A stretch of DNA of 64,000 nucleotides from Tepidisphaeraceae bacterium (lineage in GTDB: Bacteria > Planctomycetota > Phycisphaerae > Tepidisphaerales > Tepidisphaeraceae), in assembly GCA_035998445.1 (NCBI GenBank), contig DASYHQ010000014.1:1-64000 (forward strand), read 5' to 3'. The notes under the pieces were generated by a model, which searched no databases, had not been told where the DNA came from, and saw nothing but the letters and a program-made list of their open reading frames with translations. A program made the translations under genes and the position numbers. Numbering within the stretch: position 1 is the stretch's first letter; every line of letters starts with the position of its first letter. Positions 56,096 through 64,000 of this stretch are shown piece by piece.

Positions 56096-56347
56096 TCACC
56101 CCTCGACCACGCTCTTCTCGATCGGTTCGACGGTGACGCCGCGCGAGCGCAGGAAGGCGATGGCGTCGGTGACGTCCTGCTCGTCGCCGGTCAGCAGGAC
56201 GGCCATGATGCCGATCTCGTTCTGCACGCTGGCCTGCCTTATGTCAAACGACACGTCGGGGAACTTGCGGCTCATCTCCCAGATGATCGGCTGCTCGACC
56301 TGCTTCCGCGACGGGAACGTGAACCAGCAGCGTTTGGCGGTGTTCAT
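56096..56347 (-). CDS. NIL-domain protein
   Basis: An 83-residue protein from the ATG at 56347 (an ATG at 56359 is possible, with a G-run upstream). FTFPSRKQVEQPIIWEMSRK, ASVQNEIGIMAVLLTGDEQD and LRSRGVTVEPI match the NIL domain found at the end of methionine ABC-transporter ATPases and in NIL-ferredoxins linked to homocysteine synthesis. The stand-alone form is about the length of one domain. Not adjacent to, but in the same region as, the riboswitch-controlled methionine-type genes. Confidence 0.75.
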   Translation of the reverse strand: MNTAKRCWFTFPSRKQVEQPIIWEMSRKFPDVSFDIRQASVQNEIGIMAVLLTGDEQDVTDAIAFLRSRGVTVEPIEKSVVEG

Positions 56348-59829: not shown

Positions 59830-60105
59830 TCACCCGCCCGCGATCGCCGGGACGATGCTGATCTCGTCGCCTTCCTTCACCGGCGTGTCGAGGTTCTGCA
59901 TGAAGCGGATATCCTCCTCGTTCACGTAGATGTTGACGAAGCGGTTGAGCTGCGTCGGGCCCTTGAACAGGCGGGTCTCGATGCCGCTGGCCTTGGTCTT
60001 CAGGTCGTTCAGCACTTCACCGACGTTGGCGCCGTCGGCCTGTACGGCGTCGGCGCCGTTCGTGTACGTGCGTAGGGGGGAGGGGATGCGAACCTTGATG
60101 CTCAT
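59830..60105 (-). CDS. MoaD/ThiS-family sulfur-carrier protein
   Basis: A 91-residue ubiquitin-fold protein starting at ATG 60105. KVRIPSPLRTYTNGADAVQA, VGEVLNDLKTKASGIETRLF, VNIYVNEEDIRF and VKEGDEISIVPAIAGG end in the diglycine used for thiocarboxylation. Such carriers deliver sulfur for molybdopterin, thiamin, cysteine (CysO) or, in some bacteria, homocysteine. It is on the same strand and downstream of the riboswitch-controlled threonine-synthase-like gene, separated by one secreted-protein gene. Confidence 0.9.
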   Translation of the reverse strand: MSIKVRIPSPLRTYTNGADAVQADGANVGEVLNDLKTKASGIETRLFKGPTQLNRFVNIYVNEEDIRFMQNLDTPVKEGDEISIVPAIAGG

Positions 60106-60115
60106 ACCGGTTACC

Positions 60116-61093
60116 TTATCTGCCCTTCTTATCGGAATTGTCCGCAGCGCCACCCACGGGGCTGACGCGCATCGCTTCGAGAATCTCATCGAGTTGCAGC
60201 CGGCTGGGCTGCGTGTAGCTGAACCGTAGATACCGGTTGCCGCGACCCGTCTCAACGGCGACAGCATACTCGACCGGTTGCGCTTTGCGAAGACGCTCGA
60301 CCGCATCGGCGACCTGCAGCTTCTGCCGCGGCTGCTTCACGTTCATTGCCCAGCTCGAGGTGACCTGCTGCACCGCGCTCAACTGATCCGAACCCGCATC
60401 GGGGTCGGCGGCGCGGTACCGGTCGGCGGCATCGGCCAGGCCGGCGATGATCAGGTCCGATGACGGGGCGGCCTTCAGCAGCAGCGCGTCGCGGAACGCG
60501 TAGATCGGCACGTTGTACGCCGTCCACTTCACGATCGCGTCGTCGAACTGCGCCTTGGCCACGGCATCGGGCAAGCTGCGGTCCTGCACCATTCGGTTCA
60601 CCACCTTGCGGTTGTTGAACTCCGTGGCGATGCGCGTCATGGGTCGTGGCGCGCCGCGATAAATCGCGAGGACCTTCTCTGCCAGCTTTTCATCGTCAAT
60701 CGTGCCCGGGATCGCCGACAGCAACTGCCAGCGGACGTAGGCGTCCTGCGCCGGGTCCTTGGCAACGGGTTTGGCGATGGCGCCCAGCACCTTCTCGGGC
60801 GTGAGCGCCGCTGGGGGTTGGCCCTCGAAGAAGTCGGCATCGGTGCGCAGCGACCCACCCTTTCTCGCCATGTCATACTCGGCCGACAGCTTGGCGACCG
60901 CGTCGGTGATCAACGCGTCGGCGGGGTCGGCCGCGGGCTTCTTCGGCTTCACCGGCGGGGCCTTCGGAGGCTTCGCCGTGGCCGCGGGTGGCTCGGTCTT
61001 AGGCGCAGTCGCATCATCGGCCGCGTGCGCCATCAGTGGCCACGACAGCACGACGGCCAGCAGCACCGCAGCGGAAGGACGTTTTTGTCGCAT
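60116..61093 (-). CDS. Secreted protein of unknown function, 325 residues
   Basis: ATG at 61093 behind AAAAGGGGA. Signal peptide AAVLLAVVLSWPLMAHA, then a Pro/Lys/Ala linker (~30-60) and a helical domain with ALITDAVAKLSAEYDMARKG, YVRWQLLSAIPGTIDDEKLA and ADAVERLRKAQPVEYAVAVE. No family recognised. It lies between the threonine-synthase-like and MoaD-like genes on the same strand; a family 2 repeat separates it from the former. Confidence 0.6.
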   Translation of the reverse strand: MRQKRPSAAVLLAVVLSWPLMAHAADDATAPKTEPPAATAKPPKAPPVKPKKPAADPADALITDAVAKLSAEYDMARKGGSLRTDADFFEGQPPAALTPEKVLGAIAKPVAKDPAQDAYVRWQLLSAIPGTIDDEKLAEKVLAIYRGAPRPMTRIATEFNNRKVVNRMVQDRSLPDAVAKAQFDDAIVKWTAYNVPIYAFRDALLLKAAPSSDLIIAGLADAADRYRAADPDAGSDQLSAVQQVTSSWAMNVKQPRQKLQVADAVERLRKAQPVEYAVAVETGRGNRYLRFSYTQPSRLQLDEILEAMRVSPVGGAADNSDKKGR

Positions 61094-61126
61094 AACGATC
61101 CCCTTTTCGATGGTGACGATCTTACT

Positions 61127-61248
61127 CCGGTCCCTCTCCCATGTACTCATGGGAGGCTTAGCGAGGGTGATTTTGAGCTGCTCGCGTCGCCTGCAGTACG
61201 AAATCACCCTCACCTGACCTCTCCCGGAGTACCGGGAGAGGGACCGGA
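61127..61248. repeat. Palindromic element, family 2 (second copy)
   Basis: Arms starting CCGGTCCCTCTCCC and ending GGGAGAGGGACCGG, with a GAGGGTGATTT / AAATCACCCTC pair inside. Same family as 41993-42208 without its inner module. Confidence 0.85.
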
Positions 61249-61302
61249 TCACATGCGACGGCTTTCCGCGTTCTTGGCGTACTTGGCGGTTCAAAATCTT
61301 CG

Positions 61303-62553
61303 TTACACCAGCGCCGGCTCGCGCACGCCATTCGCTTCCAGCAGCCCGTCAAACTCGCTCAGCTTCGGCTCGATCACCACCGGATACGGCAAATCGTCGG
61401 CGACCACCTCCAGCGTCTTCAGGCCGTTGCCGGTGATGCTGACGACGATGCTCTCGTCGCGCGGGATGCGCCCCTGCTGGATCAGCTTGATCGCCGCCGC
61501 CAGCGTGGTGCCACCGGCCGGTTCGGTCCAGATGCCTTCGGTCTTGGCCAGCAGCTTGATCGCGTCGACGATCTCGCGGTCGGTCGCGCTCTCACCCCAG
61601 CCACCGCTGTCGCGCACCACGTTGGCGGCGTAGTAACCGTCGGCGGGGTTGCCGATCGCGATGCTCTTGGCGATCGTGTTGGGCTTTTGCGGCTCGATGA
61701 TGTCGCTGCCCTTCTTGATCGCCGTCACCACCGGGTTGCAACCGGCCGCCTGCGCACTGTAAATCTTCGGCTTGTTGTCTTCGACGATGCCCAGCGTGAT
61801 GAACTCCTGATACGCCTTGTAGATCTTGGGCAAAATCGTCCCACCGGCCGTCGGCACGACGGTGTGCTGCGGCAGTTGCCAGCCGAACTGCTCGGCAATC
61901 TCGAAGCCGTAGGTCTTGGCCCCTTCGGTGTAGTAGGGACGCAGGTTCACGTTCACGATCGCCCAGCCGTACTTGTCGGCAATCTCGGTACACAGGCGGT
62001 TCACGTCGTCGTAGTTGCCCTTAATGCGGACCATGGTCGGCCCGAAGATCAGGCTGCCCAGCACCTTCCCCTGTTCCAAATCGTGGGGGATCATCACGTA
62101 GCACTTCAGCCCCGCCTGCGCCGCGTGGGCGGCGGTGCTGTTGGCGAGGTTGCCCGTGCTGGCGCACCCCACCGTGTCAAACCCGAACTCGACCGCCTTG
62201 CTGATGGCGACCGACACCACGCGCTCCTTGTACGAGTACGTAGGATAGTTGCAGGAATCGTCCTTGATCCAGAGGTTGCTGCAACCCAGTTCCGTCGCCA
62301 GGCGGTCGGCCCGCTTCAACGGCGTGAAGCCGGAGTGGAACCCGGTCACCGGCCGATCGACCGGCAGCAGGTCCTTGTATCGCCAGAGGCTTTTCGGGCC
62401 GGCGGTGATCGACTCGCGCGTCACCTTGCCGCGCATGGCGTCGTAGTCGTACTCGACCTCGTACGGGCCGAAACACTGCTCGCACACGTGGACCGGCGAC
62501 ACCGCAACGCGGTGGCCGCACTCCTTGCACTTCAATCCGAGAACGTAGCTCAT
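61303..62553 (-). CDS. Threonine-synthase-like PLP enzyme under SAM riboswitch control
   Basis: A 416-residue fold-type II PLP enzyme. An N-terminal zinc ribbon (CKECGHRVAVSPVHVCEQC) is followed by IKDDSCNYPTYSYKERVVSV with the PLP-binding Lys; classical ThrC has S-F-K-D-R-G here. GCASTGNLANSTAAHAAQAG and TAGGTILPKIYKAYQEF follow. Relatives in actinobacteria sit beside MoaD/ThiS genes. Given the upstream SAM-I riboswitch and the downstream carrier, I favour an O-phosphohomoserine-dependent, sulfur-carrier-linked homocysteine synthase over threonine synthase. AAGGACAGGAC precedes the ATG. Confidence 0.75.
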   Translation of the reverse strand: MSYVLGLKCKECGHRVAVSPVHVCEQCFGPYEVEYDYDAMRGKVTRESITAGPKSLWRYKDLLPVDRPVTGFHSGFTPLKRADRLATELGCSNLWIKDDSCNYPTYSYKERVVSVAISKAVEFGFDTVGCASTGNLANSTAAHAAQAGLKCYVMIPHDLEQGKVLGSLIFGPTMVRIKGNYDDVNRLCTEIADKYGWAIVNVNLRPYYTEGAKTYGFEIAEQFGWQLPQHTVVPTAGGTILPKIYKAYQEFITLGIVEDNKPKIYSAQAAGCNPVVTAIKKGSDIIEPQKPNTIAKSIAIGNPADGYYAANVVRDSGGWGESATDREIVDAIKLLAKTEGIWTEPAGGTTLAAAIKLIQQGRIPRDESIVVSITGNGLKTLEVVADDLPYPVVIEPKLSEFDGLLEANGVREPALV

Positions 62554-62662
62554 TGCTGTCCTGTCCTTTGTCCGTCGTCAGTTGTCCGTGGTGGATGAAG
62601 GTGGGGATGGCGACGGACGTTCGTTTCGCTGACGGCCCGCGGTCAACAGACCGAGGAACCTC

Positions 62663-62702
62663 GCAAAACGAAACGAGCCTCTTCCCGAATAAGAAGAGGC
62701 TC
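62663..62702 (-). terminator. Attenuator terminator of the SAM riboswitch
   Basis: On the minus strand, GAGCCTCTTC, loop TTATTCGG, GAAGAGGCTC, then GTTTCGTTTT. The left arm and loop (CTTCTTAT) can pair with ATAAGAAG of the riboswitch P1 3' strand, giving a mutually exclusive antiterminator. Confidence 0.85.
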
Positions 62703-62725
62703 CATGCGGGCGCGAATGCCCGAGC

Positions 62726-62871
62726 GTCTTCTTATCTGCCCGGCGATCGTGTCCCCAAAAATTTCGGGGATCGCATCGCAGGCGGGAGTTAGCACCTATC
62801 CCGCGATCTCTCGCACGGACGGTTGCTGTGGCGTCGTCGGGCCCAACCCTCGACCACTCTGGATAAGAGCG
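62726..62871 (-). promoter_or_regulatory. SAM-I (S-box) riboswitch
   Basis: On the minus strand the order is: P1 strand CTCTTATC, then CCAGAGTGGTCGAGGG (kink-turn and core), GGCCCGACGACGCC, CAGCAACC, a variable hairpin, AGGTGCTAACTCCCGCC, another hairpin with an ATTTTT loop, then CAGATAAGAAG closing P1. These match the SAM-I consensus block for block. Binding of S-adenosylmethionine stabilises P1, freeing the downstream terminator, so high SAM turns the gene off. Confidence 0.93.
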
Positions 62872-62895
62872 AATATTCAGTTGTCGTACGCCCCG

Positions 62896-62923
62896 ATTCT
62901 ACGTCGCCGGCCGCGAGTGTCAA
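62896..62923 (-). promoter_or_regulatory. Promoter of the riboswitch transcript
   Basis: On the minus strand TTGACA, 16-base spacer, TAGAAT: close to sigma70 consensus. Transcription would start about 17-20 bases before the riboswitch. Confidence 0.8.
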
Positions 62924-63487: not shown

Positions 63488-64000
63488 CCGCCATCGCTTC
63501 GCGCTGTTCGCTCTTCTCTCTTCTGTAGGACAGGCATTCCTGCCTGTTTCTCCCCCGGCATTTCTCCCCGTATTCCTCCGACTCTCTTTTGTGGCACAGG
63601 CATTCTTGCCTGTGTCTCTTCTGTCATTTCTTCTCTTGGTGGGACGCACATTCTTGTTTGTCTCTCTTTGCGCAAGCCTCGCGCTTCCACCAACAAAGAA
63701 GAGACGCGAAGACGCGAAGCCGCGAAGCAATCGCGAAGAGATGTCGCAACCTGCCGCCACGACGGCGGTATGGGTAAGGCAAAACGCAAATCCGTGCACC
63801 ATTATGCACCATTTTGCACCATCGGTTGATGGCAATGGATTCCGGCCCCGTCCTCCGCACCGCCTATTCAATTATCAAAGAACGCGCTATCCATCTCTAC
63901 GCCCGCGCTGCGCATTTCACATCGAATCGGCGCAACATCCTCGCTCTCCTTCGCGCCTTCTTCGCGCCTTCGCGTCTCTTCCTCCACCAAAACACCCACG
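63488..64000. other. Gene-poor end of the window with decaying repeats
   Basis: 513 bp. Three degenerate copies of a short palindrome (CAGGCATTCCTGCCTG-like) lie at about 63530, 63597 and 63645. Near 63702 and 63947 GCGAAGACGCGAAG-type motifs repeat on both strands. No convincing gene. Confidence 0.6.

Follow-up and report, generated by a model that had tools for sequence, protein, structure and literature searches.

A probable MetM/MetO-type homocysteine locus behind a SAM-I riboswitch in a Tepidisphaeraceae bacterium, with a NIL-domain protein as a frequent partner

In this study, we report the analysis of a minus-strand locus at 59830-62923 of a 64,000-nucleotide stretch of DNA from a Tepidisphaeraceae bacterium (assembly GCA_035998445.1, contig DASYHQ010000014.1, positions 1 to 64,000; hereafter the window). 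The locus holds a gene for a threonine synthase (ThrC)-related enzyme, metM, preceded by a SAM-I (S-adenosylmethionine-sensing) riboswitch and followed downstream by a gene for a ThiS-family sulfur carrier, metO. In all likelihood it is a MetM/MetO-type homocysteine cassette, its chemistry being ascribed by homology to Streptomyces. A first-pass annotation of the window had proposed a sulfur-carrier homocysteine pathway, and the genome context supports it with a separate ThrC, no classical route and a complementary distribution among related genomes. The elements concerned are as follows.

62896 to 62923, minus strand: sigma-70-like promoter, TTGACA-16-TAGAAT (motif scan, 11/12 matches; 1 found against 0.2 expected in shuffles)
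62729 to 62869, minus strand: SAM-I (S-box) riboswitch aptamer (RF00162 covariance model)
62675 to 62736, minus strand: expression platform, antiterminator against terminator hairpin with T-rich tail (fold and scan)
61303 to 62553, minus strand: metM-like gene for a ThrC-related fold-type II pyridoxal phosphate (PLP) enzyme of 416 residues (TIGR00260 276 bits, PALP 230 bits)
59830 to 60105, minus strand: metO-like gene for a ThiS-family sulfur carrier of 91 residues ending AIAGG, a C-terminal Gly-Gly (family profile and translation)

The promoter, SAM-I riboswitch and attenuator described in the first-pass annotation were all found. The aptamer scored 69.4 bits against a gathering threshold of 44.4 (E 3.9e-14) and was the sole SAM-I match in a search of the whole genome; it was assigned to the SAM-I class on this score together with its expression platform of terminator and antiterminator. 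The terminator, GAGCCTCTTCTTATTCGGGAAGAGGCTC plus GTTTCGTTTT, lies at 62702-62675 on the minus strand, the scan by itself being weak, with 0.5 such matches expected by chance. The 3' strand of P1, GATAAGAAGA (62736-62727), has as its partners either the 5' strand of P1 or the 5' strand of the terminator, TCTTCTTATT; the antiterminator pairing joins 62736-62727 to 62697-62688 and is the form present in the minimum-energy fold of the leader. P1, antiterminator and terminator are thus mutually exclusive in the manner of the usual SAM-I off-switch. Similar terminator hairpins were seen in about 12 of 19 relatives.

The window MetM exceeds the TIGR00260 (thrC) cut-off of 167, carries an N-terminal zinc ribbon (C9, C12, C24, C27) and has its PLP lysine at K109, a residue kept in 90/90 aligned clade members. 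The S-Y-K-E-R motif that the earlier annotation had pointed out does surround K109, but it is no family hallmark: among the 90 members SFKDRV was found in 45, SYKDRV in 30 and SYKERV in 15, and SYKER was accordingly dropped as a family signature in favour of a clade-wide S-[FY]-K-[DE]-R-V, of which it is a local variant. Nine other positions (V112, V113, L136, N203, R205, Y208, D305, G306 and T380) are 98-100% conserved in the same alignment (n=90) and differ from the aligned ThrC rows, and the loop that reads N-P-[FY]-R in ThrC reads N-[LI]-R-P-[YF]-Y in the MetM clade. Y208 is aligned to a ThrC arginine (NPHR in 1UIM). This arginine is presumably a contact for the substrate phosphate, which serves as a lead and not as a test. 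In a quick tree, MetM members formed one clade separate from ThrC and from haloarchaeal 'ThrC', with 99% support in the approximate likelihood ratio test SH-aLRT; the clade takes in Nonomuraea L132 on a long branch, and two rows in wrong reading frames (L037, L043) were excluded. Despite its TIGR00260 score, therefore, the window protein neither groups with ThrC nor has the ThrC substrate-loop residues, and it is predicted to be an O-phosphohomoserine-dependent homocysteine synthase. An AlphaFold model of MetM was set aside as too weak (predicted local distance difference test score, pLDDT, 68; 12-sequence alignment). More distant MetM paralogues, 33-35% identical and additional to ThrC, were noted in a few relatives (G021:C21:53-1252, G013:C1:5710755-5711864 and L034), the last of which falls outside the MetM clade in the tree, near haloarchaeal 'ThrC'.

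The host assembly (5.84 Mb, 95.5% complete) encodes five PALP proteins: the window MetM, a ThrC on contig C59, TrpB, CysK and a CysM-like protein. The search for a separate true thrC, suggested with the first annotation, thus succeeded, the C59 protein having GSFKDNG, and the check for a classical homocysteine route returned little: MetA/HTS was not found in the 95.5% complete assembly, the best MetX match in the genome was a fragment of 19.6 bits against a cut-off of 500 bits, and the MetB/MetC/MetY/MetZ family (PF01053) was represented in the genome by fragments (best 36.7 bits) and by no full-length protein. The situation which that annotation had named as contrary to its proposal, a lone threonine synthase beside an intact MetX/MetY route, is not what the genome contains. 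On contig C5 (L128:6504-9122), a homoserine dehydrogenase gene is followed by one for an ApgM-family protein that scores above the TIGR02535 'proposed homoserine kinase' cut-off; the pair is a plausible source of O-phosphohomoserine, and the ApgM-family protein is a candidate non-canonical ThrB.

The distribution of metM was examined in 41 related genomes, the window's own included. The gene was present, at 72% identity or more, in 20/41, and 19 of these 20 also gave a separate ThrC-like match. In all 19 relatives that were fetched a SAM-I riboswitch preceded metM, and in 15/19 a carrier lay inside the short downstream flank. Full-length Cys_Met_Meta_PP proteins were missing from 15/20 genomes with metM and from 0/21 without it (Fisher p 2.4e-7, a guide only since the genomes are related and kinship was not corrected). 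Such a complementary distribution is the pattern expected of alternative homocysteine routes.

The diglycine-ending carrier reported earlier as lying downstream of the enzyme on the same strand was confirmed, ending AIAGG. It does not directly adjoin the enzyme: metO is 1.2 kb downstream of metM, with one open reading frame (ORF) in between.

60116 to 61090, minus strand: ORF of 324 residues with a signal peptide and no Pfam match, between metM and metO

This ORF stops 10 nucleotides ahead of metO, has weak homologues at the equivalent place in 4 relatives and is perhaps a passenger. MetO is distinct from the other three ThiS-family proteins of the genome, a MoaD (L011), a ThiS (L012) and a third carrier (L013). 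As read by eye from the translations, one of the three stands beside a MoaE-like and one beside a ThiG-like gene, and because of these neighbours the MoaD and ThiS carriers have jobs of their own. The third, MoaD-like carrier (L013, G000:C45:62497-62754) also ends in Gly-Gly, with no recognisable molybdenum cofactor or thiamine genes beside it in the stretch read. An inverted-repeat element with the ends GGTCCCTCTCCCGGTACTC (0.04 matches expected by chance) occupies 61128-61245, between metM and the next ORF, and a second copy lies at about 42000; since similar translated pieces occur on other contigs of the genome, it looks like a dispersed repeat. Short repeated runs, for example ACAGGCATTCCTGCCTGT/ACAGGCATTCTTGCCTGT, are also present at 63510-63700 of the window, downstream of a response-regulator gene, and probably represent another dispersed repeat family.

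A contig scan gave more than 580 relatives, and the figures for breadth are from the best 80 of these, which came from Planctomycetota, Binatota, deltaproteobacterial groups, Acidobacteria, Nitrospirota, Aquificota, Omnitrophota, Poribacteria, Armatimonadota, Elusimicrobia, Actinomycetota and archaea. PMC12172450 mentions actinomycetes and cyanobacteria; the MetM clade spans at least 10 phyla, and its reach past those two groups is new here. SAM-I riboswitches were also found at metM loci of Binatota, deltaproteobacteria, Acidobacteria, Mariprofundaceae and Omnitrophota. Downstream neighbours were counted at 76 loci with at least 500 nucleotides downstream for the carrier, and at 67 loci with at least 2000 nucleotides for the NIL-domain protein described below.

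An enzyme using free sulfide with O-phosphohomoserine to make homocysteine, while the carrier serves another enzyme, e.g. CysM, is an unlikely but reasonable alternative to the use of MetO. It draws on contig C33, where a cluster (L002:354-2863) encodes a ThiF/MoeB-type E1, CysM, a JAMM protease, CysK, CysC and CysH with no carrier gene of its own, for which reason MetO may serve CysM; it also draws on some MetM loci (Acidobacteria, Poribacteria and some Aquificaceae) that have no adjacent carrier. Against this, a carrier lies downstream of metM in 55/76 loci over many phyla, and in the stretches read neither carrier nor NIL matches occurred upstream or antisense of metM. Sharing of MetO with CysM would also be compatible with a carrier-dependent MetM. 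E1, CysM or JAMM genes share a cluster with metM and metO in several loci of other phyla, and the carrier is thereby linked to the making of cysteine as well as of homocysteine.

A second threonine synthase, or a threonine deaminase, with a riboswitch that only balances the flux of O-phosphohomoserine between threonine and methionine, would explain the high TIGR00260 score (276 against 167), and a cyanobacterial homologue has such activities: the Microcystis protein, which shares 51.6% identity with S. albulus MetM and whose gene adjoins a metO-like one, acted in vitro both as a threonine synthase and as a threonine deaminase, its MetM activity being unclear (PMC12172450). For the window protein this is nonetheless improbable, given the separate ThrC in the genome, the methionine genes that are the usual site of SAM-I riboswitches, the conserved carrier partner, the pocket-loop residues distinct from those of ThrC, and the distribution complementary to MetB/C/Y/Z, by which 15 genomes would otherwise be left without a homocysteine route. 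The Microcystis result does caution against extending one function to all clade members, and together with three further observations it speaks against the homocysteine cassette: 5 relatives with metM retain a Cys_Met_Meta_PP enzyme, 21/76 loci have no adjacent carrier, and cotranscription of metM and metO in the window is not certain because the two genes have an unrelated ORF and a repeat element between them.

If the locus is a homocysteine cassette, it would operate as follows. At low SAM the leader would form the antiterminator and the operon would be transcribed; at high SAM, P1 would form, the terminator would fold and transcription would stop, as the pairings suggest. The Gly-Gly end of MetO would be adenylated and thiocarboxylated, probably by the ThiF/MoeB-type E1 of C33, while homoserine dehydrogenase and the ApgM-family protein of C5 would supply the O-phosphohomoserine bound by MetM. 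By homology, MetM would eliminate phosphate via the PLP aldimine, and sulfur from MetO-COSH would replace water to give homocysteine. Threonine would be made by the ThrC on C59.

The NIL-domain protein to which the first-pass annotation had drawn attention was recovered with its family profile.

56096 to 56347, minus strand: small NIL-domain protein of 83 residues (PF09383, E 4.3e-14)

In the window it is 3.5 kb from metO, separated by a Uma2-family putative endonuclease gene (PF05685, 59158-59751) and by MBOAT/AlgI-like and AlgJ-like genes, the last two recognised by eye, and in several relatives it adjoins metO. Such a protein was found in 31/67 loci, always together with the carrier, and the proteins range from 81% to 30% identity across phyla; a match on L030 was discounted, being on the opposite strand and 35 residues long at the locus edge. 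As a frequent third partner of MetM/MetO the NIL-domain protein is new here, and no paper tying MetM to NIL proteins was found in a literature search of partial coverage. Searched against the PDB, the NIL profile matches MetN, a methionine importer, in its regulatory C-terminal domain, and our guess is that the protein is a methionine- or homocysteine-binding feedback partner, which makes it a candidate third component of the route. A NIL-domain protein nearby could alternatively point to homocysteine synthesis from aspartate-semialdehyde by DUF39 (HcyBio), in which NIL-ferredoxin proteins act (PMC5764234). That homocysteine is made by that route here, with the NIL protein as a part of it, is scarcely credible: HcyBio (PF01837) was found neither in the window's genome nor in 28/29 other metM-bearing genomes searched, and the NIL protein, at 83 residues, has no ferredoxin part.

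MetM was present in 11 Aquificota assemblies, one of them labelled Aquifex aeolicus, with the carrier adjacent in 6/11. According to Price et al. 2018 (PMC5764234), A. aeolicus, Pyrolobus fumarii and Acidimicrobium ferrooxidans had none of the homocysteine routes recognised at that time. No Cys_Met_Meta_PP match at E 1e-30 was found in any of the 11 assemblies, and DUF39 was not found in the 9 tested; on these grounds MetM is the obvious candidate for the homocysteine route of Aquificota, subject to assay. No paper making this connection was found in the same partial literature search, although Hasebe et al. may already say so. The homocysteine gap of Aquifex thereby becomes a question that one enzyme assay can address. 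More tentatively, and with slightly less than even confidence, we suggest that MetM/MetO is an ancient and widely distributed route that fills this gap, that it often includes a NIL partner acting as a methionine-sensing feedback subunit, and that it has E1, CysM and JAMM in common with carrier-dependent cysteine synthesis. Annotation pipelines call metM threonine synthase, so that genomes using MetM can appear to be methionine auxotrophs.

Among known systems, ThrC (TIGR00260; PDB 2ZSJ, 1UIM) has the fold family and PLP lysine in common with MetM and differs in clade and substrate loop. The thiocarboxylate methionine route of Wolinella employs HcyS/HcyF/HcyD with MetY; a thiocarboxylated ubiquitin-like carrier as sulfur donor would be common to both, whereas MetY (Cys_Met_Meta_PP) is absent from the window's genome, and an HcyS/HcyD/MetY identity was rejected for want of a full-length PF01053 match. 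CysO-CysM-Mec+ is the mycobacterial cysteine route, whose E1, CysM-type PLP enzyme and JAMM protease all have counterparts on C33; the C33 cluster differs in having no carrier, and MetO may be shared with it. Streptomyces albulus is said to have no classical homocysteine genes beside MetM/MetO, a trait shared with the window's genome. As far as the account of Hasebe et al. 2024 (Appl Environ Microbiol 90:e01247-24) given in PMC12172450 goes, its MetM/MetO system comprises a ThrC homologue, a ThiS-type carrier and a SAM riboswitch upstream, all of which it has in common with the window. The window differs in its planctomycete host, the ORF between metM and metO, and the associated NIL protein. 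In Nonomuraea gerenzanensis, whose MetM shares 49.5% identity with that of the window, the order is again riboswitch, metM, metO, this time without a NIL protein. Because its architecture matches that of S. albulus MetM/MetO and of the Nonomuraea locus, the window locus is counted, on comparative grounds, as a member of the already reported MetM/MetO route.

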